Shown here one piece after another: positions 4,515 through 44,673 of a stretch of 64,000 bases of DNA; positions within the stretch are counted from its first letter, which is position 1, and every line of letters begins with the position of its first letter. Position numbers and translations under genes: made by a program. The stretch spans positions 62,001 through 126,000 of the forward strand of contig NZ_BAABED010000001.1 in NCBI RefSeq assembly GCF_039539965.1, given 5' to 3'. Source of the stretch: Arthrobacter methylotrophus. Lineage in GTDB: Bacteria > Actinomycetota > Actinomycetes > Actinomycetales > Micrococcaceae. A model generated the notes under the pieces. The model was not told the DNA's origin, did not search any database, and saw only the letters and a program-made list of their open reading frames with translations.

Positions 4515-5186
4515 TTATGACATGGTGGCGAACATGAGGGCCATGGTGGTGGCGCCGAGGGCTTCGAGTCCGTGGTTTGTGCGGGTGTGGGGTGGTGGGG
4601 TTGTTTTGGGGTGGTGGGTGGTTTTTTGTCGTCGGGCACGCAGTAGGAGGATGAGGAATATTACTGCTGCGGCTGTGAAGAATGTTGCCGGGAGGATCGC
4701 CAGTGCCGGTGAGTGATCGAGTGGTGGGGTTGCCGGGCTGTGGGGCGTTGCTGTCATGGTGTGGTGGGTGGCTGGCATGGGCATTGTCATTGTCTGTGCG
4801 GGGGTGGTTCCCGGGGCGGGGGTGGTTCCTTGACTCATCATGGCGATCATGAGGGCTGCGCCGGCCATGGTGAGGGCGTGGTAGGCGCATTTGAGCTGGC
4901 CTTGGGCGGTGGTGCAGAGTGTTTTGAATTCGGGGCGGGCGACGGCTTGGATGGTGAACCAGAGGGCGGCGGCGGCCAGGACGGCGATCTGGGCCAGCAT
5001 GGTGGTGGGGGCGAGGTTCCAGAGCATGGCGGCCATCAGGATGTTCATGAGGGCGTGGAGGATGTTGTTGACCCGGTCCGTGTGTTGGCGGGACCGTGCC
5101 GCTTGCAGGGCGTGGTAGCTTCCGCCCAGGAGCAGGGCGGCGGTGAGGGTCCAGGTAATTGCGGGGATGTTGAACACGCGGATCAC
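4515..5186 (-). CDS. DUF5134 membrane protein with Met/His-rich loop, copy 1
   Basis: A 223-residue integral membrane protein matching the actinobacterial DUF5134 pattern, with conserved NNILHALMNILMAAMLWN near residue 45. About six hydrophobic helices are seen. A loop after the fourth is rich in Met and His (MTMTMPMPATHHTMTATPHS, within about residues 128-148), a composition typical of copper-handling segments. It lies 150 bases downstream of maox copy 1 on the same strand and was duplicated together with it (copy at 28251-28925, differing at two internal residues and the last codon). The family has no established function. A role in supplying Cu to the copper-dependent oxidase is inference from context. 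Confidence 0.7.
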   Translation of the reverse strand: MIRVFNIPAITWTLTAALLLGGSYHALQAARSRQHTDRVNNILHALMNILMAAMLWNLAPTTMLAQIAVLAAAALWFTIQAVARPEFKTLCTTAQGQLKCAYHALTMAGAALMIAMMSQGTTPAPGTTPAQTMTMPMPATHHTMTATPHSPATPPLDHSPALAILPATFFTAAAVIFLILLLRARRQKTTHHPKTTPPPHTRTNHGLEALGATTMALMFATMS

Positions 5187-5218
5187 GCTCTCGCTGCTGG
5201 GTTTGGGTGGGGTATGGG

Positions 5219-5319
5219 TTCAGTCCCCGGTGCGGATGCGGACAGCACCGGGGACTGAAGATCGGGGTGGAAAAAGGGGTGTGGTCCCCGGTGCGGATGC
5301 GGACGGCACCGGGGACCAC
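5219..5319. terminator. Two strong hairpins between maox copy 1 and DUF5134
   Basis: There are two GC-rich perfect stems. One pairs 5219-5233 (TTCAGTCCCCGGTGC) with 5245-5259 (15 bp). The other pairs 5281-5294 (GTGGTCCCCGGTGC) with 5306-5319 (14 bp). Read on the minus strand the maox-proximal hairpin is followed by an ACCCC and T5 run (5271-5279), so it can act as an intrinsic terminator or attenuator ending the maox message before DUF5134. The same pair follows maox copy 3. Confidence 0.7.
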
Positions 5320-5338
5320 GGTTAGTGCTTGCTTGCCT

Positions 5339-7279
5339 TTATTGTTCGTTTCCTGTGCTGCAGTGCCCGCCGTTGGTGCCCCGGGTTTCGGTGGGGAGGT
5401 TCAGGGTGGGGTTTTGGTTGAAGAAGCCGTGGGGTTCGAGCATGAAGCCGATGTTCTGGCGGGGCATGACGGGCCAGTCTTCGAGACGGACGACGTGGTG
5501 CATGCCGAAGGTGTACCAGACCACGAGGTCCTGGTCCACGATGTTCCGGTCCTTTTCGGTCCAGACGTGCAGGCCGTCATCGGCGCCGGTGGACTGGTTC
5601 GGGAACTCCCCGGCGGCGAAGCGCTCGGTCCGGTCGTAAGCGGTGACCCAGAGGTTGTTCCGGGCGAACTGGGCACGTTTGGAGACGTAGGACTCGTCCC
5701 CGGCCGCGAGCTGGATACCATCGGTGGGGATCAACCGGTACGCGACCGGTTCATCCACGATGTTCCTGCTCTCGTGGTTGACGACCTTCCAGAACCGGTG
5801 CTTGCCCGAATCGGTCTTACGGATCGCGGCTTTCTCGGTCTCCAGCAAACGATCCACGGCCATGAACGCGGTATGGGTGGGGTTCTCCCGGGGGATTTCC
5901 ATGTCCACTTCGTAAACGGCGTTCTTCAGACCATCAAGCTCGAAGTCCATCCGGACGTTGAACATGTGCTGGTGGATCGGGGCGTACAGGCCATCGTTGT
6001 TCAGGGACTGACCGTACGGGCTCTTCTCACCAGGCTTCTGCCCGGCAGTGGAAAGAATACCGGTGGCCTTGACCAGGAACTCGATGCTCCCGTCAAGGAA
6101 AAGGTGCCAGTAGAACGCGTACTCATAGTTCGCGACCGTAGCAATGAAGGAAATCACCAGCTTCCGGCTGCGCCGGGTCTCGGTGGTGCCCTCACGGAAA
6201 TCGAAGTGCTTCCACAAAATGGAATCGTCTTCCTCATGCATGCAGATCGCGTTCTCGATCGTCCACGGGTTACCGAGGCTGTCCACGCTATGACCATCGA
6301 AGTACTTGATCTCACCCAGGCAGTCACAACCCAACGTCAGGGAGTTGGCCATGTTACCGATGTTGTACTCACCGGAATCAAACGCGTTCTTCTTCGCCTG
6401 CACCGGGGCCGTATCACCATAAGGAACAACCATTTCCGACAACGAAGCCCGGTTGATCACCGAACGCTCAACACCCTGATCCCGGAACTTGAGCTGGTGC
6501 AGGACCAGACCCTCACGCGGGGTGAAACCAACCCGGAAAGACCAATCAGCCCACTGCACATGATTACCCGTCACCGCGAACGACGCACCCTCGGGCTGGG
6601 TGATCTCAATGGGTTTGAGGTCCGTACGGGCCGGACCGACGTACTTGGGCAGGTAATTACCCGAAGCGGCCGGAACCGGGATCGCCTGGTCATCCTCAAG
6701 CTTGACGACCTCCCCGGAATTCAAGTCCACGATCACAATGAAATTCTCGATCGGGTGCGCGTACGGGCTATCGTCCGCCTCGTCCCGAACAAAAACCAGG
6801 GCACGCATCAAACGCCGGCCCTCATCATCCTCACCGAAATAACCCACGGACCACGGCTCGAAACACACCAAGGACATATCCGTGATCCCGCGCTTGGCCA
6901 AAGCAGCCTGAACCTCGGGATTCTTCCGGCAACTCTCCTCACCCTCGGCGAACTCATCCACCATGAACGGCGGCTGAACACCGGCAGCAAGCTGCCTCCA
7001 CGCATCCACCGTGCCCGTCTCAAGACTCACGACCGCCTCGAACGCACGCCCCTGAGCCCGGTCCACCAGAACCGCGTCCGCCTCACGCGCCACCTGCACA
7101 CCATTACGCAAATCCGCCTTGGACGGCTCACGCAACTCAACACTGATAAAACGGAACGACTCCCCCGCAGCCGGGCCCTCCTTCAAAATCGAAACCGCAC
7201 GGGAAATCTCCACCCGCGACAACGGATCCAACGGATGCGCCGTCCCAACAACGGCTTGAGCTTCACTGCTGATAGTCAT
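5339..7279 (-). CDS. maox: Copper-containing primary amine (methylamine) oxidase, copy 1
   Basis: This 646-residue copper amine oxidase oxidises a primary amine to aldehyde, NH3 and H2O2; with methylamine the aldehyde is formaldehyde. The topaquinone precursor is Tyr385 in NYEY, the probable catalytic base is Asp301 in FDSGEY, and the Cu ligands are His436 and His438 (IHQH) plus one of His594/595 (GMHH). No signal peptide is seen, so it is probably cytoplasmic. The start follows AAGGAG seven bases upstream. It differs from copy 2 at only two residues (Ala235 for Thr, Ser273 for Pro). It is divergent from the nickel transporter gene with a shared, mirrored control region. The methylamine assignment rests on the RuMP genes nearby and the Arthrobacter P1 precedent; phenethylamine or tyramine oxidases belong to the same family. 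Confidence 0.93.
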   Translation of the reverse strand: MTISSEAQAVVGTAHPLDPLSRVEISRAVSILKEGPAAGESFRFISVELREPSKADLRNGVQVAREADAVLVDRAQGRAFEAVVSLETGTVDAWRQLAAGVQPPFMVDEFAEGEESCRKNPEVQAALAKRGITDMSLVCFEPWSVGYFGEDDEGRRLMRALVFVRDEADDSPYAHPIENFIVIVDLNSGEVVKLEDDQAIPVPAASGNYLPKYVGPARTDLKPIEITQPEGASFAVTGNHVQWADWSFRVGFTPREGLVLHQLKFRDQGVERSVINRASLSEMVVPYGDTAPVQAKKNAFDSGEYNIGNMANSLTLGCDCLGEIKYFDGHSVDSLGNPWTIENAICMHEEDDSILWKHFDFREGTTETRRSRKLVISFIATVANYEYAFYWHLFLDGSIEFLVKATGILSTAGQKPGEKSPYGQSLNNDGLYAPIHQHMFNVRMDFELDGLKNAVYEVDMEIPRENPTHTAFMAVDRLLETEKAAIRKTDSGKHRFWKVVNHESRNIVDEPVAYRLIPTDGIQLAAGDESYVSKRAQFARNNLWVTAYDRTERFAAGEFPNQSTGADDGLHVWTEKDRNIVDQDLVVWYTFGMHHVVRLEDWPVMPRQNIGFMLEPHGFFNQNPTLNLPTETRGTNGGHCSTGNEQ

Positions 7280-8068: not shown

Positions 8069-9235
8069 ATGGCTCTCAACACAGAAGCCGAGACGCTGGT
8101 AGAGGTAGCGCATCCCCCGACCCGACCTCACGTGCCAAGCTCTCCCGGGGGGTCGTCCCCACGAAAAGGATTGAAGTCGGGGCACCCGGCTCCGGGAGAA
8201 ACCGCGGGGTTCCGTTTCGTCACGGTGTATCGGGATCGGGAAAAGTTATCCCTGCGGACCAGGCTGCTGTTCACGTTTAGTGCGGTCGCCGCTTTGCACG
8301 TTGCCTTCTTTGTACTTTGGTTGTCTGGTTCTGCAGGTGCCGCGCAGCCGCTGGGGCTCGGGCTGGTTGTCACCGCGTATGTCGCCGGTATCAAGCACAG
8401 TTACGACTGGGACCACCTTGCCGCGATCGACAATTCCACGCGCAAGTTCGTGGCGCAGCATAGGGACCCCGTGAGCGTGGGGTTCGCGTTCAGCCTGGGC
8501 CACAGTTCAGTGGTGACCCTCGCCGGGCTGTTGCTGGTGGCTGGAACTGCGTCGATCGGGCAGTTCATGGAGGACGGCACCATGGGGAATAAGGTGCTGG
8601 GCTTGGTCGGTAGCGGCGTCTCCGGGCTCTTCCTGCTTGCGATGGGTTTGTTCAACGGCTCGGCATTCGTCCGCGCTACGCAGGTCTATCGGAATGTGCG
8701 GGCCGGGGGTGAGCTCCGCGATGAAGACCTTGAGGCTAAAGGCCTCGTTGCGCGACTTCTCGCCAAACCGCTGTCCAAAGTGGAGCGGCCACGGAACATC
8801 TATGTCATCGGATTCCTGTTCGGGCTGGGGTTCGATACCGCCACGACCATCGGACTTCTGGTCATCACAGCGACGGCGTCGCTCGCCGGCGTCTCACCGC
8901 TCACCTTGATGGCCCTTCCGCTCGCGTTTACCGCTGCCATGACCCTGTGCGACTCCGTCAACGGCGTGGCGATGATGAAGATGTATAAATCTGCCATCCA
9001 CAACCCGCAGCGCAAGCTCGGCTTCAACGCCGTGATCACTGGCATTTCGGCTGTCTCGGCGCTGTTCATATCTGTGACCACCCTCGGTGGTTTCGTCAAC
9101 GCGGCGTTCGAGCTCAAGGATCCCGTCACCACATGGTTGGGGCGAATTGACCTCGGCGATGCCGGACTCATCCTGGTGGGACTCTTTGTGCTGGTGTGGG
9201 CCGTGTCCGCGTGGCGGGGCAGACGACTTCGCTAG
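8069..9235 (+). CDS. NiCoT-family (HoxN/HupN/NixA) nickel/cobalt transporter
   Basis: A 388-residue permease that would import Ni2+ (or Co2+) across the inner membrane. About 65 polar N-terminal residues precede the first helix. The family signatures are HSYDWDHLAAIDNSTR (canonical HX4DH), SLGHSSVV, and GFLFGLGFDTATTIGLL; the fourth motif region is LAFTAAMTLCDSVNG. Trp replaces the usual Ala in the first motif (HSYDWDH rather than HAFDADH). The ATG follows AAGGAG. It is 117 bases upstream of the ureohydrolase gene and probably co-transcribed with it, suggesting Ni supply to that enzyme. Its upstream region duplicates that of maox. Metal specificity cannot be read from sequence. Confidence 0.87.
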   Translation: MALNTEAETLVEVAHPPTRPHVPSSPGGSSPRKGLKSGHPAPGETAGFRFVTVYRDREKLSLRTRLLFTFSAVAALHVAFFVLWLSGSAGAAQPLGLGLVVTAYVAGIKHSYDWDHLAAIDNSTRKFVAQHRDPVSVGFAFSLGHSSVVTLAGLLLVAGTASIGQFMEDGTMGNKVLGLVGSGVSGLFLLAMGLFNGSAFVRATQVYRNVRAGGELRDEDLEAKGLVARLLAKPLSKVERPRNIYVIGFLFGLGFDTATTIGLLVITATASLAGVSPLTLMALPLAFTAAMTLCDSVNGVAMMKMYKSAIHNPQRKLGFNAVITGISAVSALFISVTTLGGFVNAAFELKDPVTTWLGRIDLGDAGLILVGLFVLVWAVSAWRGRRLR

Positions 9236-9352: not shown

Positions 9353-10588
9353 ATGAACACAACCCCCGATGAACCGTCGAAAGTTGAAGGGTTCGACCGC
9401 CGCTCCCTTCAAGGAGTAGCCAACCTTGATCTCTTGGCAGAGATTCCGACAGACGTTCATGAGAAATCGAGCGCCCGCAGCCTCAAATTAGGACTTGAAG
9501 CAGCCGATTCGATCGAAGATCGTACTATTACCACTTTTAGCAGGGGACCGCAACCAGCCTTTGCGGGTATCAAGACCTTTCTCAAAGCTCCCTATTGCGA
9601 AGACATCTCTGAGGTTGACCAGTTCGACGTGGCATTTTTGGGGATCCCCTTCGACACCGGAACGACATATCGTCCGGGAACCCGATTCGGACCCCAGTCC
9701 GTGAGAAACATTTCCGCCTTGTATGACGGATATAACCTTGACCTTGCAGTAGATCTACAACAAGAAATTAGCATGTGTGATGCTGGGGACGTTTTCGTTA
9801 TCCCAGGCAACATTGAAAAGACCTTTGATCAGATCGACAAAGCGGTCTCGTACATCATGCAAAAGGGAACATTTCCGGTAATTGTCGGTGGTGATCACTC
9901 CATTGGATACCCTACTGTTAGGGGTATCGCGAAGAATTTTGACGGCAACATTGGCATCGTTCATTTTGATCGGCACATCGATATCATGGAAAAAGATATG
10001 GATGAACGCATGCACACCACTCATTATTACCATGCCACCAATATTCCGAACGTACGGCCCGAAAACTTGGTCCAGATAGGCATTGGTGGATGGTACGGCG
10101 CGCGCCACGGACTCAAAGTGGCAAGGGAACGCGACACAACAGTAATTACGATCGGTGACCTCGAGAATATGGGAATCGACAAGGCCGTTGAGGCGGCCCT
10201 GGAAATTGCTTGGAAGGGTTGCGACGCCGTCTATCTTTCTTTCGACATCGATGTCGTCGATGGCGGAATCGCTCCCGGTACAGGCTCTCCGGAACCAGGT
10301 GGCCTCATTCCCCGCGAAGCGCTCAAAGCCTTGCGGCAGGTGGCCGCAGAGGGGATTATCGGCATGGAAGTCGTCGAAATCTCGCCTCCGTACGATACAT
10401 CCGAGTCGACAGCGCAACTCGGATGCAGGGCGATCCTGGACGTTCTTGGAACCATGGTAAAGACTGAGCAGATCGGCTCCCGTTCCGCTAAAGGCAAGCG
10501 ACCCGGAACCCAGGGCATTCACGGCGAGCCACTCGGCGGTTGGGATCCGAAGAGCATTCTCGACCCAGAGGCCACCCGACGTGGGTAA
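9353..10588 (+). CDS. Agmatinase/arginase-family hydrolase, possibly a Ni-dependent guanidine-type ureohydrolase
   Basis: This 411-residue ureohydrolase probably cleaves a guanidino compound to urea plus an amine or ammonia. Metal-site motifs are GGDHS (His182), FDRHID (Asp206, His208, Asp210) and SFDIDVVDGG (Asp298, Asp300). In agmatinase and arginase the second motif is normally DAHxD; here Arg207 replaces Ala beside the metal ligands. The protein is about 100 residues longer than typical SpeB, with N- and C-terminal extensions, as in the longer guanidine hydrolase (GdmH) type. A nickel transporter lies directly upstream and an NCS1 permease downstream. Codons look more AT-rich than its neighbours, hinting at separate origin. 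Substrate is inferred: guanidine, methylguanidine or agmatine are all possible. Confidence 0.8.
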   Translation: MNTTPDEPSKVEGFDRRSLQGVANLDLLAEIPTDVHEKSSARSLKLGLEAADSIEDRTITTFSRGPQPAFAGIKTFLKAPYCEDISEVDQFDVAFLGIPFDTGTTYRPGTRFGPQSVRNISALYDGYNLDLAVDLQQEISMCDAGDVFVIPGNIEKTFDQIDKAVSYIMQKGTFPVIVGGDHSIGYPTVRGIAKNFDGNIGIVHFDRHIDIMEKDMDERMHTTHYYHATNIPNVRPENLVQIGIGGWYGARHGLKVARERDTTVITIGDLENMGIDKAVEAALEIAWKGCDAVYLSFDIDVVDGGIAPGTGSPEPGGLIPREALKALRQVAAEGIIGMEVVEISPPYDTSESTAQLGCRAILDVLGTMVKTEQIGSRSAKGKRPGTQGIHGEPLGGWDPKSILDPEATRRG

Positions 10589-11033
10589 GGGTTAGAAACT
10601 GATGCGTGTCACGAGGGCGGGGTAGGGAGTGAGGCCTCCAGAATAGGGGTGCTTACTCCCACCGCCCTCGGAGGCCGCGACTTGTCCCACGCTAGCTGCA
10701 CCTGCGCGCCGGCGCGCACGCCTTTCGAGCTGCCCGCTGCCCAGATGCCCGTGATTGAGCGCAGCAGCTCCTTCAGCGAGGTCAACGATCTGGCCGCCCC
10801 TCGGGCGAAGCCCACCATTGCGCGATCGTCTGGGCCCCTGCCCAGTTGTGCGCCCACAACATCGCTGTGTTCGCGACTCCCGGCAAGAATGCTCGGGACG
10901 CCCAGCGAATTACGTCTCCAAGCACTTGGATTACTTGCTTCCCGCCAAACATTCGCACCCAACGGCGAGGATTCAACTTCCCAACACCACGCTGCTAGCA
11001 TCGCCGCTGACAGCACTGCCCGAAGGATTCGGC
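10589..11033. other. 445-base spacer between the ureohydrolase and NCS1 permease genes
   Basis: No recognisable gene is seen. A minus-strand frame is open from about 11109 to 10609 and contains a protein-like stretch (LTSLKELLRSITGIW), but it overlaps the permease start, lacks a convincing ribosome site and matches no family I know. It could be a decayed gene or chance. A Shine-Dalgarno-like GAAGGA lies at 11021-11026 before the permease start. Confidence 0.4.
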
Positions 11034-12497
11034 ATGACAATACACAACCGAAGCAATCCCGCTGCCCGGACCGAAGTGCCCCGGCTCGAGGACAAGACCA
11101 TCCAGCCAATCCCGCTGAACGAACGCCATGGAACGGCCCGGGATCTCTTTACCATCTGGTTTGGCTCCAACATCATGATCATGACCATGGTGACCGGCGG
11201 CCTCGCCACCACCGTGTTCGGGCTCGGCTTTGTGCCCGCCATCGTCGGAATCATCCTTGGAAACGCCGTCGGTGCCATCTTCATGGCCCTGCACGCGGCC
11301 CAGGGACCGCAGCTGGGTGTGGCGCAGATGATCCAGACCCGCGGCCAGTTCGGTTCCTACGGGGCGTTGCTGATCGTCGTGCTCGTGGTGGTCATGTACC
11401 TCGGGTTTTTCGCCGCGAACCTCGTCTTCGGCGGCGAAGCGCTAGCCGCAGTCAGCCCGGGCATCAGTGATGATGCGGGCATCGTTGTCATTGGGGTGGT
11501 GAGTGTTGTTGCCACGATTTTCGGCTACCGAATCATCCACGCCTATGCACGCTTCTTGAGCATCGTGGCCGGGTTGGCGCTGGTCCTGGCCTTCGTCTGG
11601 ATCCTTTTTGTCCACGGATTGCCCTCCACCTTCCTTAGCGAGGGCAACTTTACCTGGGCTGGCTTCATGGGCACCGTCTCCGTTGCCGCCCTCTGGCAAC
11701 TCGCGTACGCTCCGTACGTTTCGGACTACTCCCGCTATTTGCCTCAAGGCACCGGCTCGACTCCGGCTTTCTGGGCATCCTATTCCGGTTGCGTCTTGGG
11801 ATCGCTCTTCCCGATGATCCTCGGCGCCTTGGTGGGAACTCTCGCGGTCACTATGGGGGCCGACGCAGCCAACGTCCAGATCCCAGGCAGCATGGGCGCC
11901 TTGCTCCAGCCATGGACCATGGTAGTCATGGGGATCTTTTGCCTCGGAGTCGCAGCGCAAAATTCCATTAATCTCTACTGCGGAGTCTTGTGCAGCCTCA
12001 CGATTGGGCAGACGTTCAAGCCGAGCTGGTTGCCTCGCGCCAAGACCCGAAGCGTTGCGGCAATTCTCCTGTTCACCGTCGCTCTCATGGTCTCGCTTTT
12101 CGCACGCGACAACTTCATCCTCTTCTACACGAACTTCCTCTCCTTCCTGATGTACGTACTGGTCCCTTGGACAGCCATCAACCTGGTGGACTACTACCTC
12201 CTCCGGCACGGCGACTACAAGGTTGAAGACTTCTTCAAGCGCGACGGCGGAGTCTACGGGAGGTTCAACTGGGTTGCGATCGGTGCCTACCTGGCCGGCG
12301 CCCTCATCCAGGTTCCGTTCTCGGCAACGGCGGTCTACACCGGACCCGTCGCGGCAGCCATGGGCGGAGTGGACATCTCCTGGATCGTCGGGCTGGGCGT
12401 GGTGTCACCGCTCTACTACGTCGCGGCACGGGTGTTCCGGAAGAAGCCAGTGACATCGTCCCTCGAGGCCCTTTCACTCGAAAGCGACCTGGTCTGA
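11034..12497 (+). CDS. NCS1-family permease (purine/cytosine/allantoin permease type)
   Basis: A 487-residue inner-membrane permease with about 12 helices. The N-terminal stretch RHGTARDLFTIWFGSNIMIMTMVTGG carries the family's first helix, which holds the Na+ and substrate site in NCS1 transporters. LAYAPYVSDYSRYLP and the C-terminal YYLLRHGDYKVEDFFKRDGGVYGRFNW are typical of CodB-like members. The ATG at 11034 was chosen because GAAGGA precedes it by eight bases and the family's N-terminus begins there; an upstream in-frame start is unlikely. It probably imports the nitrogenous substrate of the adjacent ureohydrolase (inference from context). Confidence 0.86.
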   Translation: MTIHNRSNPAARTEVPRLEDKTIQPIPLNERHGTARDLFTIWFGSNIMIMTMVTGGLATTVFGLGFVPAIVGIILGNAVGAIFMALHAAQGPQLGVAQMIQTRGQFGSYGALLIVVLVVVMYLGFFAANLVFGGEALAAVSPGISDDAGIVVIGVVSVVATIFGYRIIHAYARFLSIVAGLALVLAFVWILFVHGLPSTFLSEGNFTWAGFMGTVSVAALWQLAYAPYVSDYSRYLPQGTGSTPAFWASYSGCVLGSLFPMILGALVGTLAVTMGADAANVQIPGSMGALLQPWTMVVMGIFCLGVAAQNSINLYCGVLCSLTIGQTFKPSWLPRAKTRSVAAILLFTVALMVSLFARDNFILFYTNFLSFLMYVLVPWTAINLVDYYLLRHGDYKVEDFFKRDGGVYGRFNWVAIGAYLAGALIQVPFSATAVYTGPVAAAMGGVDISWIVGLGVVSPLYYVAARVFRKKPVTSSLEALSLESDLV

Positions 12498-12571: not shown

Positions 12572-13279
12572 CTACGTGGTGTACAGCAGCGAGAGTCCCA
12601 AGTGGGGAACGTCCAGAGCCACTCTGTGCTGGTTTGGAGCTCCAGACTTGATCCGCTCGCCCACCAGGTACTTCCCGGAGTTGCCGAGAATGACGCGGTT
12701 GCTGGCGTTGATGAGGGCGGCATCCCTTGGGATCGCGCGCAAGTTTGGCATGATGAGGGGTTCTAAGTCCTTGATCCGAATGTCGCATCCCGCAACCCCT
12801 GTGAAGTTTCCATGGACGAAAAACGGTTCCGTGAACGAGAGAATGTATTCCTCGAAGCCGAGATAGTCCAGATACGGGCCCCAGAGAGTCTGCTCACCTG
12901 TGGAAGCTGCGGTCGAGAAGAACGGTAGCTTCTCATAGTCGTAATATCGGTCACTGCCCGGGGTCCGGTCAGCGTCCAGCCTTTCCATGCCATCGGAGTT
13001 CTTGCGGAACCACCATTCGAAGGCTCTGCCACCCGCCTCAACGGATTCCGCGGCGAAAAATGTCCCGGCGCCCACAGCAAAAGAGTTCCTCGCCAAAAAC
13101 TCCCGCGCGACTTCTTCGAGTCCTACCCGTGCAGCCTTATCGACTTTGGACTTGCCGGCGAGATTCTGCTCAAGGAGCGAGGCAACGTTCCTGACGAGTT
13201 CCGTGGTCTCCGTCGAGACGCCGTTTATCCACGCACTGAGGACATTAGCAGCATGTGCGACTTCATAGTCGGTGTTCAT
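12572..13279 (-). CDS. Cache-domain protein, soluble, probable ligand sensor
   Basis: A 235-residue protein with no membrane helix or signal peptide. It looks like a Cache-type sensory fold: an N-terminal helical segment (ANVLSAWINGVSTETTELVRNVASLLEQ), then strands including FEWWFRKNSDGMERLDADRTPGSDRYYDYEKLPFF and the characteristic GPYLDYLGFEEYILSFTEPFFVHGNFTGVAGCDIRIKDLEPLI. Stand-alone Cache proteins near GntR regulators and permeases are known in Actinobacteria but are poorly characterised. The ATG at 13279 has AGGATGG upstream and overlaps the stop of the preceding regulator remnant. It is probably co-transcribed with the GntR gene and may bind the amine or guanidino ligand of this module (inference). 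Confidence 0.65.
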   Translation of the reverse strand: MNTDYEVAHAANVLSAWINGVSTETTELVRNVASLLEQNLAGKSKVDKAARVGLEEVAREFLARNSFAVGAGTFFAAESVEAGGRAFEWWFRKNSDGMERLDADRTPGSDRYYDYEKLPFFSTAASTGEQTLWGPYLDYLGFEEYILSFTEPFFVHGNFTGVAGCDIRIKDLEPLIMPNLRAIPRDAALINASNRVILGNSGKYLVGERIKSGAPNQHRVALDVPHLGLSLLYTT

Positions 13280-13467
13280 TGGCCATCCTGAATTGTTTCG
13301 GCGTAACACGAGGTGAGTTTCCTGATCAGGTGGAGGGTGTTTCGTCTGATGTTCTCAAACGCGAGTTTCTGGGCTTTCTCGGGTTGGCCGTAGTTAAACG
13401 GCCAGGCCAGTCCCAAGTGTTCAACGGTTTCCGCATCCGGATCAAAATGCTGTGGCGAGGGGTTCAT
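13276..13467 (-). pseudogene. Remnant: duplicated C-terminal tail of a GntR/FCD regulator
   Basis: A 63-codon open stretch resembles the last 60 residues of the regulator immediately upstream. AEHLELVRAIAQDQPEKAQKL in the intact gene corresponds to VEHLGLAWPFNYGQPEKAQKL here, and both end in a DGQ or GGQ tail followed by TGA in the same context (GGCCAATGA). The DNA-binding half is absent. This looks like a tandem duplication of the regulator gene followed by deletion. It might still be translated from the overlapping ATG, but function is unlikely. Confidence 0.7.
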
Positions 13468-14225
13468 TGGCCACCCTGACTTGATGCAGCGTAACTCAGG
13501 GTGAGTTTCGTGTCGATGAGGTGGAAGATATTCCGCTTGATGTGCTCAAGTATCAGTTTCTGGGCTTTCTCGGGTTGGTCCTGGGCTATTGCCCGGACCA
13601 ATTCCAAATGTTCGGCGGTTGCCAACTCCGGATCAAATGCCACAGTGAGTGGGGTCCAGAGCTGTTGAACTGTTTCTTCCTGAAGCCGGATTTCGGCATT
13701 CGCAAGCCTCGGTGATTGCGCGGCTACGGCCAACTCAATGTGGAAGCGGCTGTCAGCAGGTGCTCGCGCTTCCGGAGTCGCGGCCAGAACCAATGCTCGC
13801 GCAAGTTCCTGAAGACGATCGACGTCGTGTGCTTCCGCGCGCTCGCATGCCAGACGGACGGTCGTGGCGGAAATAGCGGAATGCTCGTCTCCAATGTCGC
13901 GTATTTCCGAAATAGATGTCGAAAGAAACCAATCCCGTATGGTGTCGGTCTGGGCTGGAGGCTGGTTCACGACGAAGGTTCCTCCACTGCGGCCTCTCCG
14001 GGTCTCGACGACACCCTGTTCGCGAAGCTCCGCCAAAGCTTCGCGAAGGGTGGCGCCGCCAACTCCGAACATGTCAGAGAGTGTCGCTTCGGGGGGCAGC
14101 CGTTCACCTACTTTGAGCAGACCTAGCCCGATCGCCTTGGAAATCCTTTCGACTATCGCGTCGGCCCTCTCGATTTCCGGCAGGGAGCGGTATATCTGCG
14201 ACTGGAAAGAGGTTTGCGAGGCCAA
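13464..14225 (-). CDS. GntR-family transcriptional regulator, FadR/FCD subfamily
   Basis: A 253-residue regulator. The N-terminal winged helix-turn-helix includes GLLKVGERLPPEATLSDMFGVGGATLREALAELREQGVVETRRGRSGGTFV (residues about 36-86). The all-helical FCD ligand domain follows, with metal-site-type His residues in RFHIELAVAAQSPRLANAEI. It is divergent from hxlB and upstream of the Cache gene. It may repress its own operon, the ureohydrolase genes or hxlB in response to a small acid or amine; the sequence does not say which. An ACTAACTAACTAATAG stretch at 14266-14281 in its promoter region is a possible operator. Confidence 0.88.
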   Translation of the reverse strand: MASQTSFQSQIYRSLPEIERADAIVERISKAIGLGLLKVGERLPPEATLSDMFGVGGATLREALAELREQGVVETRRGRSGGTFVVNQPPAQTDTIRDWFLSTSISEIRDIGDEHSAISATTVRLACERAEAHDVDRLQELARALVLAATPEARAPADSRFHIELAVAAQSPRLANAEIRLQEETVQQLWTPLTVAFDPELATAEHLELVRAIAQDQPEKAQKLILEHIKRNIFHLIDTKLTLSYAASSQGGQ

Positions 14226-14344: not shown

Positions 14345-14471
14345 CCTTAAGGGTAGTTAGAACCGTCAGAAAATAGCGTTACCCCTGCAGGTTTGCTTCG
14401 AGATCATGGATATCAATCAGAAGGACCCATTCGGCCTTTATGGCCGTTTGCCGAATCGAAGGGACCAAATC
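14345..14471 (+). promoter_or_regulatory. hxlB promoter and leader, shared with tkt and gapB
   Basis: The stretch from TTAAGGGTAG (14347) to the GTG start aligns with the region before tkt (31301-31425). Shared blocks are AACCGTCAGAAA, an AGCGTT core at 14375-14380 within the 18-base element 14374-14391, GTTTG-TTCG, and ATGGATATCAAT. The homologous element before gapB (44746-44763, minus strand) is better conserved with tkt. Three genes of one pathway with one upstream pattern argue for a common regulator. Confidence 0.75.
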
Positions 14472-28096: not shown

Positions 28097-28098
28097 AA
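26159..28098 (+). pseudogene. maox: Methylamine oxidase, copy 3, frameshifted
   Basis: The sequence equals copy 2 except for one missing G in the CCCCCGGGAG run (CCCCCGGAG at about 27545-27551). The frame shifts after about residue 463, giving a 515-residue product ending at 27706. The original frame resumes as an open stretch from 27574 to 28098. Tyr385, Asp301, His436 and His438 are before the break; the third Cu ligand near residue 594 is after it, so the product should lack a complete copper site. The rest is undamaged, so the lesion is very recent or is an assembly or consensus error in a collapsed repeat. Confidence 0.88.
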
Positions 28099-34805: not shown

Positions 34806-34922
34806 CCGGCGGGTGTCGTTCAGGCGCTGCTGCGCCCGCCACCCCGCCCCGAGGCATGGAGACTCTTCGGAGTCTCCATGCCCTCATCTGCAAGCTCTGA
34901 CCGCTACCGAAAGGCAGACACC

Positions 34923-35633
34923 ATGTCCAGTTCACCCCGGAATTGCTGTATCAACCCCAGCATCCTCTCGGCTGACTTCGTCAACCTCGAAGCCGAGCTT
35001 GCCCGCATCGGCAACGCCGATGCCGTTCACGTGGATGTCATGGACAACCACTTCGTGCCGAACCTCACGATCGGGCTGCCCGTCGTGGAGCGGCTGCAAA
35101 AAGTCAGTCCCGTTCCGCTGGATGCCCACTTGATGATTTCCAATGTCGACCGTTGGGCGCCCCAGTTCGCCGACGCCGGCCTGCACTCGGTCACGTTCCA
35201 CGTCGAGGCGTCCGATGCCCCCATCAAACTCGCCCGTGAGCTACGCGCACGAGGAGCCAAGGCAGGCATGGCACTGCGCCCGGCCACCCCGGTCGAACCG
35301 TACCTGGACATGCTCCCCGAACTGGACATGCTGCTGATCATGACCGTAGAACCTGGTTTCGGCGGCCAGGCATTCCTGGACGTCATGCTCCCCAAGATCC
35401 GCCGCGCCCGCGCCGCGGTCGAGGGCTCCGGGGTGAACGTCGCCATCCAAGTTGATGGCGGCATCACCGAGGAAACCATCACCCGCGCCGCCGAGGCCGG
35501 CGCCAACGTCTTCGTGGCCGGATCAGCCGTCTACGGCAAACCCTCACCCGCCGACGCCATCGAGGCACTCCGGGCCAAGGGCCAACTCGCCTTCGCCTCC
35601 AAAACAACCACCCCCGAACCCCGGAAAGCCTGA
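34923..35633 (+). CDS. rpe: Ribulose-phosphate 3-epimerase
   Basis: A 236-residue TIM-barrel enzyme interconverting ribulose 5-phosphate and xylulose 5-phosphate. Conserved pieces are [66 protein letters not shown] and [11 protein letters not shown], covering the catalytic Asp and metal-binding His residues. The ATG at 34923 was chosen over an in-frame upstream start because GAAAGGCAG lies just before it and the family N-terminus starts there. It is 10 bases before rpiB. Confidence 0.96.
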
Positions 35634-35643: not shown

Positions 35644-36117
35644 ATGCGCGTTCACATCGCAACCGACCACGCAGGTATGGAACTAAGCTCGCACCTCATC
35701 ACCACACTCTCCGCCCACGGCTACGAAATGGTGGACCACGGACCCGCAGCCTACGACGCCGAAGACGACTACCCGGCCTTCTGCATTAACGCCGCTACTG
35801 CCGTCGTGGCCGACCAAGCCGCGGGCGTGGACGCCCTCGGCATAGTACTCGGCGGCTCAGGCAACGGCGAGCAAATCGCCGCGAACAAAGTCAAAGGCGT
35901 CCGCGCGGCCCTGGCCTGGAACCTGGACACCGCCAAACTCGCCCGCCAACACAACAACGCCAACGTCGTCGCAGTCGGCGGACGCCAACACACAGTCCAC
36001 GAAGCCACCGAACTGATCAAAGCATTCCTGACCGAACCATTCACCAACGCCGAACGCCACGAACGCCGCATCGGCCAGATCGCCACCTACGAAACCACCG
36101 GCGAAATCACCAACTAA
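35644..36117 (+). CDS. rpiB: Ribose-5-phosphate isomerase B
   Basis: A 157-residue RpiB/LacAB-family enzyme interconverting ribulose and ribose 5-phosphates. The phosphate-binding loop reads GGSGNGEQIAANKVKGVRAAL. As in the Mycobacterium tuberculosis type, the catalytic Cys of E. coli RpiB is absent and Glu76 (in GNGEQ) would act as base. DHAGMEL holds the conserved Asp-His. The ATG at 35644 follows GAAGGACAA and gives the usual length; longer in-frame starts would overlap rpe. It is part of the tkt-tal-rpe-rpiB-fba run. Confidence 0.93.
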   Translation: MRVHIATDHAGMELSSHLITTLSAHGYEMVDHGPAAYDAEDDYPAFCINAATAVVADQAAGVDALGIVLGGSGNGEQIAANKVKGVRAALAWNLDTAKLARQHNNANVVAVGGRQHTVHEATELIKAFLTEPFTNAERHERRIGQIATYETTGEITN

Positions 36118-36169: not shown

Positions 36170-37189
36170 ATGCCCATCGCAACCCCAGAGATTTACTCCG
36201 AGATGATCGACCGTGCGAAGGTCGGTGGTTTCGCGTTTCCGGCCGTGAATGTGACCTCGTCGCAGACCCTGAACGCGGCGATCCGTGGTTTTGCTGAGGC
36301 TGAGTCGGATGGCATCATTCAGGTTTCGACTGGTGGCGCGGCTTATTGGTCCGGTGCTTCGGTCAAGAACATGGTTGTCGGTTCCTTGGGTTTTGCTGCT
36401 TTCGCCCGTGAGGTCGCGAAGAACTACAACGTGAATATTGCCCTGCATACGGATCACTGCCCGCAGGACAAGCTGGCTGATTTTGTGTTGCCGTTGCTGG
36501 CTGCTTCGGAGGAAGCGGTGAAGGCCGGCAAGGACCCCATTTTCAACTCGCATATGTGGGATGGCTCGCATGAGACTTTGTCCGAGAATCTGCGGATTGG
36601 CCGGGAGCTTCTGGAGCGTGCGGCTGCGGCCAGGATCATCCTCGAGGTTGAGATCGGTACGGTCGGCGGCGAGGAAGACGGTGTTGAGAACGAGATCAAC
36701 GAGAAGCTCTACACCACCACCGAAGACGCCTTGGCCACGATCGAGGCGTTGGGTGCGGGGGAGAACGGTCGGTATCTGACGGCGTTGACGTTCGGGAACG
36801 TCCATGGCGTGTACAAGCCGGGCAACGTCAAGCTCCGTCCGGAGCTCCTCAAGCAGATCCAGGCGGAGGTCGGTGCCAAAATCGGCAAGGACAACCCGTT
36901 TGATCTGGTGTTCCACGGTGGTTCGGGTTCCACGGAGCAGGAGATCGCGGATGCTGTTTCCTATGGTGTCATCAAGATGAACATCGACACCGATGTCCAG
37001 TATGCGTTCACCCGTCCGGTTGCCGGACACATGTTCTCGAACTACGACGGTGTCTTGAAGGTCGACGGCGAGATGGGCAATAAGAAGGCCTATGATCCGC
37101 GTGTCTGGGGTGCTTCGGCGGAGGCCGGCATGGCTGCCCGGATCGTGGAAGCCGCAAAGCAGCTCGGATCGGTAGGCAAGACCTTCTAA
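36170..37189 (+). CDS. fba: Class II fructose-bisphosphate aldolase
   Basis: A 339-residue zinc-dependent aldolase cleaving fructose 1,6-bisphosphate to glyceraldehyde 3-phosphate and dihydroxyacetone phosphate. The zinc site His appears in NIALHTDHCPQDKL; other marks are EVEIGTVGGEEDGV, LTALTFGNVHGVYKPGNVKLRPELL, VFHGGSGSTEQEI and IKMNIDTDVQYAF. It gives the cleavage step of the fructose-bisphosphate variant of RuMP, with pfkA upstream in the pathway. A decayed second copy of its 3' end lies at 41948-42010. Confidence 0.96.
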   Translation: MPIATPEIYSEMIDRAKVGGFAFPAVNVTSSQTLNAAIRGFAEAESDGIIQVSTGGAAYWSGASVKNMVVGSLGFAAFAREVAKNYNVNIALHTDHCPQDKLADFVLPLLAASEEAVKAGKDPIFNSHMWDGSHETLSENLRIGRELLERAAAARIILEVEIGTVGGEEDGVENEINEKLYTTTEDALATIEALGAGENGRYLTALTFGNVHGVYKPGNVKLRPELLKQIQAEVGAKIGKDNPFDLVFHGGSGSTEQEIADAVSYGVIKMNIDTDVQYAFTRPVAGHMFSNYDGVLKVDGEMGNKKAYDPRVWGASAEAGMAARIVEAAKQLGSVGKTF

Positions 37190-37256: not shown

Positions 37257-38252
37257 ATGAGCGAGAAACTGCGTTGGGGCGTCCTGGGCACCGCCCGAGT
37301 TGTCCGAAAGACAATTCCTGCGTTGCAGGAAACGAAAAATGGTGAGGTCGTAGGCATCGCGTCCCGCACCGAGGAAAGGGCCAGGGAGTACGCCGACAAG
37401 CACGGTATCCCACAGGCGTTTGGCTCTTATGACGCGCTGCTCGCTTCCCCGGACATCGACGCTGTCTACATCGCCCTTCCCAATGCCCTGCACCTCGAAT
37501 GGATTCTAAAATCCTTGGACGCAGGCAAACACGTCCTCTGTGAAAAACCTTTGGCCATGAGCGCCGACGAGTGCGAGGAGATTACGAGCAAGGCCGAGGA
37601 GACCGGGCTCAAAGTCTTAGAAGGTTTTATGTACCGGTTTCACCCGCGTTTTGAGAAGCTACAAGAGCTGCTCGCGGCCCGCACGGTCGGCAAATTGACT
37701 TTCGTCCACGTCGGTCACTCTTTCGATGCGGGCGGGGACGACAACATCCGCTGGTATGCCGGGCTCGGCGGCGGCGCACTTTTCGATACCGGGTGCTACT
37801 GCGTCAACATGAGCCGGATGGTCACGGACCAGGAGCCGGCTCGAGTCGCCGCCTTTGGCAACTACCGTGACGCCATCGACGGAGGTCGGGTCGACACCAG
37901 CATTGCCGGCATGCTGCGCTTTCCCGGCGGTGCGACCGCGCTGTTTGATACCGGAGTGAATCTTGAGCGCCGCAACTTCTTGGAACTCACGGGCACCGAA
38001 GGCCGGCTCTACCTCGACAATCCGTTTGGGCTCCTGGAGGAGGATTCGGTCCTGGAGGAGCATCACTTCGGGCAGGACACGATCTATCACGAGGTCAAGG
38101 GCGAAAACCACTTCGTACGGATGGGCGAACACTTCGCCGACAGCGTCCTCAACGGAACGCCGCTCCGCTACGACCTCACGGACGCGGCAAACAACGCGCG
38201 GGCGTTGGAAGCTCTCGACAGGGCAGCGCGGAAACAAGAGGCGGGCGTCTGA
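37257..38252 (+). CDS. Gfo/Idh/MocA-family oxidoreductase
   Basis: A 331-residue NAD(P)-dependent dehydrogenase of the glucose-fructose oxidoreductase type. The N-terminal Rossmann fold begins LRWGVLGTARVVRKTIPAL; the signature EKPLAMSADECEEI has the conserved Lys, and GGGALFDTGCYCVNMSRM is typical of the C-terminal substrate domain. AAGGAG precedes the ATG. It lies directly after fba and may act on a sugar or inositol side substrate; a role in methylotrophy is not evident. Its 3' end abuts a pfkA fragment, suggesting it was inserted or rearranged at that point. Confidence 0.9.
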   Translation: MSEKLRWGVLGTARVVRKTIPALQETKNGEVVGIASRTEERAREYADKHGIPQAFGSYDALLASPDIDAVYIALPNALHLEWILKSLDAGKHVLCEKPLAMSADECEEITSKAEETGLKVLEGFMYRFHPRFEKLQELLAARTVGKLTFVHVGHSFDAGGDDNIRWYAGLGGGALFDTGCYCVNMSRMVTDQEPARVAAFGNYRDAIDGGRVDTSIAGMLRFPGGATALFDTGVNLERRNFLELTGTEGRLYLDNPFGLLEEDSVLEEHHFGQDTIYHEVKGENHFVRMGEHFADSVLNGTPLRYDLTDAANNARALEALDRAARKQEAGV

Positions 38253-38253
38253 A

Positions 38254-41916: not shown

Positions 41917-41947
41917 AATTACGCGATGCTCCGCCAGCAGGCACGTG

Positions 41948-42010: not shown

Positions 42011-42084
42011 GTCCGAGCAATTCCAATGACCGTTGTCCCGGGAGGGCCTCGGGGACCCCTCAGCCCGACAGGCTGGCCGGGGGC

Positions 42085-43110
42085 TCAGCCGAACAGGACT
42101 GCGGCTTCGTCGTAGCGGTTCTGCGGAACGACTTTTAGCTTGTCCAGGGCGTCCTCGAAAGCCACTCGTTCGATTTCCGTGCCTTTGAGGGCCACCATGG
42201 TTCCCCAGCGGCCTTCGACGACGGAGTCGATGGCGGCCATGCCCAGGCGGGTGGCCAGGACCCTGTCGAAGGCTGAGGGCACGCCGCCGCGCTGGATGTG
42301 GCCCAGGATGGTGGCACGGGTTTCGATGCCGGTCAGGGCTTCGATTTCCGGGGTGAGTTGGTCCGCGATGCCACCGAGCCGGGGACGGCCGAAGGTGTCT
42401 AGCCCGCGTTCGGAGTGCGGGGATTCCATGTGGTCCGGGACGAACCCTTCGGCCACCACTACCAGTGGGGCGCGGCCACGGGTGTGGGCTTCCTTGACCC
42501 ACTGGGCTATCTGCTCGATGCTGACTTTCTGCTCGGGGATCAGGATGGCGTGCGCGCCGGCTGCCATCCCGGCGTGCAGGGCGATCCAGCCCACGTGCCG
42601 GCCCATGACCTCCACGATCATGCAGCGGTGGTGCGATTCTCCGGTGGTGCGTAGCCGGTCCAGGGCCTCGGTGGCGATTTGGACGGCGGTGTCGAAACCG
42701 AAGGTGTAGTCCGTGGCGTCAAGGTCGTTGTCCACTGTCTTGGGAACGCCGACGATCTTGAGTCCTGCGTCGGTCAGGCGCTTGGCCGCGGCCAGGGTTC
42801 CCTCACCGCCGATGGCAATGATCGCCTCGATGCCAAGACGGTCCATGTGGGCCGTGATGACCTCGGGGCCGCCGCCGTTCTCGAACGGGTTGGTGCGGGA
42901 GGTGCCAAGGATGGTTCCGCCTTGTTTGGCGATGCCCCGGACCATGGTGCGGGGAATCTCGATGATGTCGCCCTCAACCACACCACGCCAGCCGTCCCGG
43001 AAGCCCACGAATTCGTGACCATGGATGGCAATGCCCTTGAGCACGGCGCCACGGATAACGGCGTTTAGACCGGGACAGTCGCCACCGCTGGTGAGGATTC
43101 CAATTTTCAT
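42085..43110 (-). CDS. pfkA: 6-phosphofructokinase
   Basis: A 341-residue enzyme phosphorylating fructose 6-phosphate to the bisphosphate, needed for the fructose-bisphosphate RuMP variant. The donor site has GILTSGGDCPGLNAVIRG (residues 4-21) and GGEGT (101-105); catalytic PKTVDND is at 123-129. Gly104 with Lys124 is the mixed signature seen in actinobacterial enzymes: Gly104 favours ATP, Lys124 is also found in PPi-dependent forms, so the phosphoryl donor is not certain. The ATG at 43110 is preferred to an upstream TTG. It lies 73 bases downstream of gapB on the same strand. Confidence 0.94.
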   Translation of the reverse strand: MKIGILTSGGDCPGLNAVIRGAVLKGIAIHGHEFVGFRDGWRGVVEGDIIEIPRTMVRGIAKQGGTILGTSRTNPFENGGGPEVITAHMDRLGIEAIIAIGGEGTLAAAKRLTDAGLKIVGVPKTVDNDLDATDYTFGFDTAVQIATEALDRLRTTGESHHRCMIVEVMGRHVGWIALHAGMAAGAHAILIPEQKVSIEQIAQWVKEAHTRGRAPLVVVAEGFVPDHMESPHSERGLDTFGRPRLGGIADQLTPEIEALTGIETRATILGHIQRGGVPSAFDRVLATRLGMAAIDSVVEGRWGTMVALKGTEIERVAFEDALDKLKVVPQNRYDEAAVLFG

Positions 43111-43182
43111 GTTTCGGCTCAAATCTAAGAAGGTTTGCGGGCATGGGTTCCGCCCGGTGACATGAGTGGTGGAGGGCGGACG

Positions 43183-44673
43183 CTAGGCCGATCCCAGGGC
43201 GGCAAGCACCGGCATGGCTTCCTCAACGACATCCCTCGCCGGGAACGACGGCCGCTTCACGCCGGCCATTTCTTCCATGACGCGCACTACCTGGCAGGAG
43301 TAGCCGAATTCGTTGTCGTACCAGACATAGACCACGAGGTTCTTGTCGTTGGCGATGGTGGCCAGGCCATCCACGATGCCCGCACGGCGGGAGCCCACGA
43401 AGTCCGTGGAGACAACCTCGGGCGAATCGATGAAGTCGATCTGCTTGCGTAGCTCCGAGTGCAATGACATCTCGCGAAGGTAGTTGTTCACTTCCTCCTT
43501 CGTGGTCCCCGTCTCCAGGCTCAGGTTCAAAATGGCCATCGACACATCCGGGGTCGGTACCCGGATCGCGTTGCCGGTCAGCTTGCCCTGCAGCTCGGGC
43601 AGGGCCTTGGCCACGGCCTTGGCCGCACCCGTTTCGGTGATGACCATGTTCAGGGCCGCCGAACGCCCGCGCCGGTCGCCCTTGTGGAAGTTATCGATCA
43701 GGTTCTGATCGTTCGTGAACGAGTGCACGGTCTCCACGTGCCCGTGGATGACGCCGAACTTGTCGTTGAGTGCCTTCAGCACCGGGGTGATCGCGTTCGT
43801 GGTGCACGACGCCGCGGTGACGATCCTGTCCGAGTCCAGAATCGAGGAATGGTTGATGCCATGAACGATGTTTTTCAGCTCACCCTTGCCCGGAGCCGTG
43901 AGCAACACCCGTGCCACGCCCTTGCTGCGCAGGTGCTGGGACAGGCCCTCGGCATCGCGCCACCGGCCCGTGTTATCCACCACCAAAGCATCCTTGATGC
44001 CGTAGGCCGTGTAATCGACAGTGGAAGGGTTCTCCGAGTAGATAACCTGGATCTGCACCCCGTTGGCCGTGATCGTGTTGGCGGCCTCGTCCACGCGGAT
44101 GGTGCCTTCGAAGGAACCATGCACCGAATCCCGGCGCAGCAGGCTCGCGCGCTTGACGAGATCGTTCTCGGCGCCCTTGCGCACCACGATCGCGCGCAGG
44201 CGCAGGCCATGCCCGCCGCCGGCCTTCTCAATCAGGAGCCGGGCCAGGAGCCGGCCGATGCGCCCGAAACCATACAGCACCACATCCGTACTGCTCCGGT
44301 CGTCCGCGCCCCGACGCCCGAGAACCCCGGCCAGCTCGGCCCGGAGGAATTCCTCCAAAGCCAGGCCACCGCCGTCGAACTTGAACTTCTCGTTCAACCG
44401 CGCAATATCAATCGCCGCGGCCCCGAGCTCCAGCCCCGCCAGGATGTTCAACAACGGCGCCGTCTCCTCGAGCAGCAGCTCTTCCTTGCTGATCCGACGC
44501 GCGAAACGGTGCGCCTTCAAGATGCTCATCGTGGACATGTTGACCAGGCTGCGCCCATGGATGCTCGTCACCACATTGTTTTCCCGGTACAACCGGCCAA
44601 TCACCGGAATCATGGCCTCAGCCAACGCTTCCCGGCCCATCCACATAAGACGAGAAGCTGAAGTCTCTAGCAT
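43183..44673 (-). CDS. gapB: Glyceraldehyde-3-phosphate dehydrogenase, long GapB-type
   Basis: A 496-residue GAPDH with about 128 extra N-terminal residues of unknown function before the Rossmann motif GFGRIG (135-140). The catalytic Cys290 is in AASCTTNAITP. WYDNEFGYSCQVVRVMEEM is the conserved C-terminal segment. Such long forms are known in Actinobacteria as the second GAPDH (GapB/GapX in Corynebacterium), often linked to gluconeogenic flux and NADP. Its promoter has the element shared with tkt and hxlB, tying it to formaldehyde assimilation. It is probably co-transcribed with pfkA. Confidence 0.93.
   Translation of the reverse strand: MLETSASRLMWMGREALAEAMIPVIGRLYRENNVVTSIHGRSLVNMSTMSILKAHRFARRISKEELLLEETAPLLNILAGLELGAAAIDIARLNEKFKFDGGGLALEEFLRAELAGVLGRRGADDRSSTDVVLYGFGRIGRLLARLLIEKAGGGHGLRLRAIVVRKGAENDLVKRASLLRRDSVHGSFEGTIRVDEAANTITANGVQIQVIYSENPSTVDYTAYGIKDALVVDNTGRWRDAEGLSQHLRSKGVARVLLTAPGKGELKNIVHGINHSSILDSDRIVTAASCTTNAITPVLKALNDKFGVIHGHVETVHSFTNDQNLIDNFHKGDRRGRSAALNMVITETGAAKAVAKALPELQGKLTGNAIRVPTPDVSMAILNLSLETGTTKEEVNNYLREMSLHSELRKQIDFIDSPEVVSTDFVGSRRAGIVDGLATIANDKNLVVYVWYDNEFGYSCQVVRVMEEMAGVKRPSFPARDVVEEAMPVLAALGSA

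Follow-up and report, generated by a model that had tools for sequence, protein, structure and literature searches.

We analyzed a 64-kb stretch of the Arthrobacter methylotrophus genome (the window, C1:62001-126000 on a 4.92-Mb contig of the 5.08-Mb genome, here G000). Between positions 4515 and 44673 it contains genes for methylamine oxidation and the ribulose monophosphate (RuMP) cycle, together with a three-gene unit, nicT-urh-ncs1, whose central gene encodes a guanidinase-like ureohydrolase (Urh). Genes were called by NCBIfam and Pfam profile scans with curated cut-offs, which covered part of the open reading frames (ORFs) in the window. An earlier note on this DNA had listed amine oxidases, permeases and RuMP, pentose-phosphate and glycolytic genes within 40 kb, and the profile searches placed every one of them in this region. 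The nickel transporter gene (8069-9235) and the guanidinase-family ureohydrolase gene (9353-10588) had been omitted from that list. Each RuMP, pentose-phosphate and glycolytic enzyme passed at least one curated NCBIfam cut-off, opcA excepted; the permeases and regulators fell below cut-offs and are named by their best match. The features are as follows.

4515..5186, minus strand, DUF5134 membrane protein with a Met/His-rich tail, co-duplicated with maox1 (PF17197, 74.4 bits; near-identical copy at 28251-28925)
5339..7279, minus strand, maox1, Cu/TPQ amine oxidase of the methylamine oxidase type (NF008559, 897 bits, cut-off 651)
8069..9235, plus strand, nicT, NicO-family nickel transporter (NF052500, 266 bits, below cut-off 450; PF03824, 196 bits)
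9353..10588, plus strand, urh, ureohydrolase resembling guanidinase (GdmH), with Ser312 where both solved guanidinases have the gating Trp; a candidate hydrolase of methylguanidine
10755..12497, plus strand, ncs1, NCS1-family permease of the cytosine/purine/uracil/thiamine/allantoin type (PF02133, 194 bits; TIGR00800 below cut-off)
12572..13309, minus strand, cache, stand-alone Cache/PDC sensor-domain protein adjoining gntR (PF22673, 41.5 bits)
13464..14225, minus strand, gntR, GntR-family regulator, divergent from hxlB (no model above cut-off)
14406..15071, plus strand, hxlB, 6-phospho-3-hexuloisomerase (TIGR03127, 226 bits, cut-off 160)
15191..15814, plus strand, hxlA, 3-hexulose-6-phosphate synthase, one of four in the genome (TIGR03128, 256 bits, cut-off 200)
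16464..18020, plus strand, zwf (TIGR00871, 640 bits, cut-off 401)
18017..19009, plus strand, opcA (TIGR00534, 224 bits, below cut-off 256)
19219..19962, minus strand, IclR-type regulator (no model above cut-off)
19959..21431, minus strand, apc1, APC permease (TIGR00909 below cut-off)
21976..23916, plus strand, maox2 (NF008559, 899 bits, cut-off 651)
23913..25565, plus strand, apc2, APC permease (TIGR00909 and TIGR00908 below cut-offs)
26159..28098, plus strand, maox3, broken by a frameshift of one base (overlapping frames at 26159-27706 and 27574-28098)
28251..28925, plus strand, DUF5134 protein, second copy (PF17197, 73.9 bits)
28975..29859, plus strand, gnd, NAD-type 6-phosphogluconate dehydrogenase (TIGR00872, 319 bits, cut-off 297)
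29943..31262, minus strand, LuxR-type regulator (no model above cut-off)
31426..33582, plus strand, tkt (TIGR00232, 735 bits, cut-off 682)
33684..34805, plus strand, tal (TIGR00876, 436 bits, cut-off 234)
34878..35633, plus strand, rpe (TIGR01163, 254 bits, cut-off 213)
35644..36117, plus strand, rpiB (TIGR02133, 199.5 bits, cut-off 168)
36170..37189, plus strand, fba, class II (TIGR01520, 419 bits, cut-off 348)
37257..38252, plus strand, Gfo/Idh-type oxidoreductase (TIGR04380 below cut-off)
42085..43122, minus strand, pfk (TIGR02483, 462 bits, cut-off 431)
43183..44673, minus strand, gapB, long PRK08289-type GAPDH (NF006139, 812 bits, cut-off 431)

The methylamine oxidase genes and hxlA/hxlB are clustered with pentose-phosphate genes, as in the one-carbon islands described in Arthrobacter strains 31Y, 35W and MA-N2 (PMC5023230). 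Those islands also contain clustered mao, hps, hpi, zwf, opcA, tkt, tal, rpe, rpi, fba, pfk and gap, and several of their genes, mao and hps among them, are nearly identical within one genome, as was found here; gene multiplication was proposed as a strategy. Growth on methylated amines was reported for MA-N2 in the same paper, and the earlier note's methylamine-to-RuMP island agrees with the islands of such strains. Judged by its sequence, the region is almost certainly a chromosomal one-carbon island of this known Arthrobacter type. Since the type, MA-N2 included, was published in PMC5023230, it is not new as such. Going by family membership and by PMC5023230, Maox, a copper amine oxidase, would oxidize methylamine to formaldehyde, HxlA and HxlB would assimilate the formaldehyde into fructose 6-phosphate, and the formaldehyde acceptor would be regenerated by Tkt, Tal, Rpe, RpiB, Pfk and Fba. 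For comparison we used a same-species draft genome (G079, also locus L008), which we took as that of the sister strain Arthrobacter sp. MA-N2.

Two claims of the earlier note did not hold. It had counted three maox copies, and the third is split by the frameshift, so that three working copies are not supported; both reading frames still match the oxidase family. It had also held that the region alone provides both branches of a complete RuMP cycle, a view that was rejected because pgi, the gene for phosphoglucose isomerase, is absent from the window. Since the Pfam PGI model at E 1e-3 missed the Pgi of G000, the genome's own Pgi protein was used as the query, and a tblastn search with it at E 1e-5 found nothing in the window. 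The gene itself lies between tal and zwf at C1:1503853-1505484; its best models, NF007080 and NF003016, stayed below their cut-offs. Further copies were found at about 4.045 Mb (whole length, 99.6%) and about 3.757 Mb (residues 4-534 of 543, 99.2%) on the same contig. The dissimilatory cycle is therefore incomplete within the island, and Zwf, OpcA and Gnd can run an oxidative cycle only when Pgi is provided by other parts of the genome.

We then compared what sits between gntR-cache and maox, using 18 stretches fetched from 13 other genomes. The layout hxlA-hxlB / gntR-cache / slot / maox was present in seven stretches, one per genome (L221, L222, L225, L226, L227, L230 and L231); the stretches from the other six genomes did not show it. 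All seven slots contained a HODM_asu-like gene (PF11927, scanned in all seven). Protein clustering also placed an EutQ-like cupin and an APC permease in every slot (each family scanned in two loci) and a DmmA-like/2Fe-2S reductase ORF in six (family scanned in L225). By these family names the set looks like a dimethylamine-monooxygenase-type module, the product of which would be methylamine. The corresponding slot of the window and of MA-N2, between maox1 and cache-gntR, is occupied by nicT-urh-ncs1, which in the window are all on the plus strand; the matching dimethylamine-type set of G000 is at C1:4041751-4050005, before another maox-DUF5134 pair. If Urh takes methylguanidine, a methylamine-making module would therefore have been replaced by another that also makes methylamine. 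PMC5023230 discusses Tmo, Tmd and EutQ as primary modules, none of which is in the window slot, and a word search of its text found no word beginning with agmatinase, arginase, nickel, guanidin or urea, and 'gene conversion' did not occur either.

The Urh sequence was examined against solved structures. Its best matches in the PDB were the guanidinases of Nitrospira inopinata (9fek, 462 bits) and Synechocystis (7esr and 7oi1, 438 bits; source organisms from PMC11410670), and it scored about 176 bits against guanidinobutyrase (3nio) and 111-132 bits against the metformin hydrolase chains. Like GdmH and the comammox guanidinase (7oi1, 7esr and 9fek), Urh belongs to the guanidinase subfamily of ureohydrolases, with the metal-ligand motifs (GGDH at 179, DRHID at 206 and SFDID at 296) and the DRH signature. 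However, the loop GTGWPEPGG of both solved guanidinases reads GTGSPEPGG in Urh, so that Ser312 replaces the gating Trp (Trp313/Trp305), and the MHT loop carries HYY instead of PWF. Near urh no guanidine riboswitch was matched in Rfam at the gathering score, again unlike GdmH; a loose threshold yielded a single guanidine-II match (E 0.098), which fell short of the gathering score and lay antisense within nicT. The trio contains one ureohydrolase gene, which was also the only match genome-wide at E 1e-100, and the NCS1 permease had no sequence match in the PDB. Between G000 and MA-N2, urh differs by 1 amino-acid-changing and 32 silent substitutions (dN/dS 0.009; 0.035-0.18 for seven genes near urh). 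Thus, urh is under strong purifying selection.

The role of the gating Trp was described in PMC11410670: the residue permits or blocks access to the active site, and nothing but guanidine is said to fit the narrow entry channel. The comammox W-gate guanidinase released no urea from methylguanidine or the other larger compounds, apart from a little from agmatine (PMC11410670; the sentence in question prints 'methylguanine', and the methods and figure legend of that paper say methylguanidine).

We propose that nicT-urh-ncs1 takes the position of the dimethylamine-monooxygenase-type module. Ncs1 would import an N-methylated guanidine and NicT would import nickel. Urh, a putative nickel ureohydrolase whose pocket may be opened by loss of the gating Trp, would split the N-methylated guanidine to methylamine and urea; methylamine would go to the adjacent Maox and urea to the urease of the genome. 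Gene position and the gate residue point to methylguanidine as the likeliest substrate, giving methylamine and urea, an assignment that we make tentatively and at less than even confidence. The whole explanation, the island plus the suggested role of the trio, comes close to an even call but falls slightly on the doubtful side. A broader claim, which we advance more hesitantly than either of these, would combine three statements: that Urh is EC 3.5.3.16, that front-end modules swap in the one-carbon island, where the methylamine-producing slot would take either a dimethylamine monooxygenase or an N-methylguanidine hydrolase with importers for nickel and substrate, each supplying one and the same amine oxidase and RuMP set, and that the S/T-gated branch of the family consists of alkylguanidine hydrolases labelled agmatinase.

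The proposed reaction is in print. Methylguanidine amidinohydrolase (EC 3.5.3.16) of Alcaligenes sp. N-42, which converts methylguanidine to methylamine and urea, dates from 1980 (cited in PMC11970497), and both the bacterial activity and the bacterial formation of methylguanidine from creatinine are mentioned in PMC11764249 and PMC11970497. The likeness to Urh is one of the proposed reaction. The passages on this activity in the two papers name no gene for the enzyme, although one may be in print elsewhere. A similar arrangement was reported for DmgH and MefH (PMC11399263), nickel ureohydrolases that free a methylated amine for one-carbon growth, with a nickel transporter nearby and urease; those enzymes have two subunits with HypA/HypB, whereas the trio contains a single ureohydrolase gene. 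The Synechocystis guanidinase operon contains nickel-delivery proteins and an ABC importer (PMC12186494), in place of which the window has a nickel transporter and an NCS1 permease. If the substrate assignment is correct, urh would be a gene for the bacterial reaction described in 1980, creatinine breakdown products would be linked to one-carbon growth, and Trp versus Ser/Thr at the gate would provide a sequence rule for reassigning many proteins now called agmatinase.

To place the gate residue in its family, we kept 80 urh-type loci out of 389 candidates. The gate residue was Trp in 40 and Ser or Thr in 40, and the MHTTH motif of the window Urh was also present in 9 of the 40 S/T-gate loci. 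On a 100-row tree a single change accounts for the W and S/T labels; the branch concerned has a support of only 63, and the reference rows are on long branches. Riboswitches were checked in 14 of the 40 loci of each gate class, as whole loci of unequal length: guanidine-I riboswitches were found in 11 of 14 W-gate loci (6/7 and 5/7) and in none of 14 S/T-gate loci, three of which, from Actinomycetospora, had a guanidine-III riboswitch instead. Clustering of neighboring ORFs by length gave little, since long antisense ORFs in GC-rich DNA interfere, and the neighbor counts are lower bounds (56 of the 80 loci kept their own urh, and one representative per cluster was scanned). Among the 31 S/T-gate loci without MHTTH, neighbors clustered with a HupE/UreJ nickel permease in at least 6 and with a LysR gene in at least 10. 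S-gate ureohydrolases near HupE/UreJ and LysR genes were seen in Hyphomicrobium, Aminobacter and a related metagenome-assembled genome (L062, L068, L058, L085, L077 and L072), and Hyphomicrobium facile has two such loci. In L027 (10001-11964), a NicT-like gene (41%) is directly downstream of a W-gate guanidinase with guanidine-I riboswitches.

Several observations weigh against the proposed role of the trio. The gate Ser is common to a large clade without an assigned substrate (of the best 120 protein matches to Urh, 118 have Ser, 2 have Thr and none has Trp), and guanidinobutyrase also lacks Trp at the gate. The dimethylguanidine and metformin hydrolases, which are nickel ureohydrolases, reject methylguanidine (PMC11399263). 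The substrates that Pfam gives for the NCS1 family are nucleobases, thiamine and allantoin. Nickel use by Urh is suggested by the adjacent nicT alone, and of the scanned ORFs none next to urh matched a hypA/hypB-like gene. The distribution of urh is also narrow. It was found in 3 of 206 genomes of the genus, the full trio being seen only in G000 and MA-N2. In the third genome, Pseudarthrobacter sulfonivorans (G015, locus L009), urh is 92% identical, with an APC permease instead of ncs1, and no copper amine oxidase was found at E 1e-60 or among first-look candidates, so that urh is independent of Maox there. More distant urh relatives (L010, L013 and L014) had no Maox or hxlA match within their loci and adjoin APC permeases and GntR genes. 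In three Actinomycetospora loci, a guanidine-III riboswitch and an SMR gene adjoin urh, which fits plain guanidine equally. In favor of the proposed role, besides the gate residue, the slot comparison, the riboswitch pattern and the low dN/dS of urh, urease was present in all three genomes with urh, in P. sulfonivorans about 10.5 kb from it.

It is unlikely, though a reading to be taken seriously, that Urh is an ordinary guanidinase which converts guanidine to ammonia and urea as a nitrogen source, its maox neighborhood being a coincidence in an unstable, repeat-rich island. Among solved structures Urh is nearest to guanidinases, an APC-superfamily permease likewise accompanies the comammox guanidinase (PMC12186494), and the region is arranged differently in the two strains. 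The Actinomycetospora loci just described agree with this reading, and the window has a guanidine-III riboswitch of its own, 40 kb from urh. On the other hand, the Trp gate of both solved guanidinases is Ser in Urh, the gathering-score search returned no guanidine riboswitch near urh, and the trio sits where other islands have a module that would produce methylamine.

Slightly less probable is a larger guanidino substrate such as agmatine or 4-guanidinobutyrate, with an amine product, for example putrescine, oxidized by the amine oxidase. Guanidinobutyrase 3nio has Thr at the gate position, Urh narrowly reached the TIGR01230 agmatinase model (175.2 bits against a cut-off of 174.3), and the distant urh relatives adjoin amino-acid permeases. 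However, the guanidinobutyrase score is far below those of the guanidinases, Urh has DRH instead of the DAH motif of 3nio, and the oxidases of MA-N2 were named methylamine oxidase by similarity to the Arthrobacter P1 enzyme (PMC5023230). That the trio is an acquired hitchhiker without functional link in a plain island of the published type is improbable: its rarity in the genus and an island without a listed ureohydrolase on the ERGS1:01 plasmid (below) speak for it, but the near absence of amino-acid-changing differences in urh and the maox1-nicT-urh-ncs1-cache-gntR order kept in both G000 and MA-N2 speak against it.

The copy number of the island genes was then determined. G000 contains four zwf genes over the cut-off, one distant match and pseudogene fragments; three strong transketolase matches, one of them the housekeeping gene; four hxlA genes over the cut-off; six intact copper amine oxidase genes (five near-identical, one at 44% identity) and the frameshifted copy; and GAPDH genes of the long type (three) and the ordinary type (one). 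The possibility that the island holds the only copies of central genes was rejected, since housekeeping or extra copies were found elsewhere in G000 for the enzymes checked. In the genus, hxlA was found at E 1e-40 or better in 94 of 150 genomes, with the most copies in G000 (four), three each in MA-N2 and G083, and one or two in the other 91. Thus, many genomes of the genus have hxlA, whereas high copy numbers of it are uncommon.

Many of the copies are nearly identical. The three window maox copies lie in 2.0-2.8-kb repeats that are 99.57-99.96% identical; maox1 and maox2 are 99.9% identical, and the five G000 copies are mutually 99.0-100% identical. By comparison, maox1 is 96.4% identical to its syntenic counterpart in MA-N2, and the two full MA-N2 copies are 98.6% identical to each other. 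The two island copies within G000 are 99.5% (tkt), 99.6% (tal) and 100% (rpe) identical, and those of MA-N2 are 100% identical for all three genes; between the genomes the values are 95.7-97.1%. Because copies are more alike within than between genomes, in both genomes (MA-N2 being a draft), the pattern fits maintenance of maox, tkt, tal and rpe by gene conversion or repeated duplication. The pattern was mixed for hxlA (0.2-1.8% difference within G000, 1.0-2.6% between genomes) and for zwf (99.4% for the pair in the window and at 4.29 Mb, 95.9% for the third island zwf and 94.1% for the housekeeping zwf). In the MA-N2 draft, the housekeeping zwf is a 165-residue piece and the pgi there is a fragment (L233 and L237); G000 keeps the housekeeping tkt-tal-pgi-zwf-opcA intact. 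The island seems to exchange with housekeeping loci. If so, island copies kept alike within a genome while exchanging with these loci would be a clear case of upkeep of methylotrophy gene dosage in one chromosome. The longest pgi copy of MA-N2 among the fetched stretches is in an island remnant and matches in two frames. A further island in G000 (C1:3747656-3770547) contains two oppositely oriented hxlBA pairs separated by 19 kb, along with zwf-opcA and a copy of pgi, and MA-N2 has a similar one.

The earlier note had suggested that the region could be transferable as a unit. A related island is present on a 754-kb plasmid of Arthrobacter sp. ERGS1:01, with a LuxR-type regulator, hxlBA, zwf, opcA, IclR, APC, amine oxidase, APC, DUF5134, rpe, rpiB, gnd, tal and tkt; the gene table for the 44.7 kb shown, which is incomplete, lists no fba, pfk, gapB or ureohydrolase. 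Thus, the island type can be plasmid-borne. Transfer as one unit was not borne out: in the MA-N2 draft, the maox1-nicT-urh-ncs1-cache-gntR block and the hxlBA-zwf-...-fba block are on different contigs. PLSDB rates the ERGS1:01 plasmid non-mobilizable, and no mobile-element family was matched among the window ORFs scanned. Bacillus methanolicus plasmid pBM19 also carries extra RuMP and glycolytic gene copies for one-carbon growth, but differs in its methanol dehydrogenase instead of an amine oxidase and in its plasmid location.

Other features of the window were recorded. Besides the window copies, DUF5134 genes were looked for behind methylamine-oxidase-type genes in loci L182-L210 (flanks of about 1.4 kb only). 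Where the oxidase was at least 84% identical, 5 of 10 loci had one (L186, L199, L201, L203 and L207); where it was more distant, 0 of 19 did; a role of this Met/His-rich membrane protein in copper supply is a guess. The gntR gene and the stand-alone Cache/PDC gene (12572-14225) are a candidate two-gene amine sensor. On the minus strand at 49641-50398, a guanidine-III riboswitch (49.7 bits) directly precedes two overlapping SMR genes (PF00893), likely a guanidinium exporter pair. The guanidine-III/SMR units of Actinomycetospora, on the strand opposite the urh homolog, are at 11184-11605 (L010), 11144-11540 (L011) and 11139-11530 (L012), and their SMR genes show 53-58% identity to the window pair. 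At 397-2477, the window contains genes for V/A-type ATPase subunits B and D followed by a universal stress protein gene; V-type ATPase subunits look unusual for this genus.

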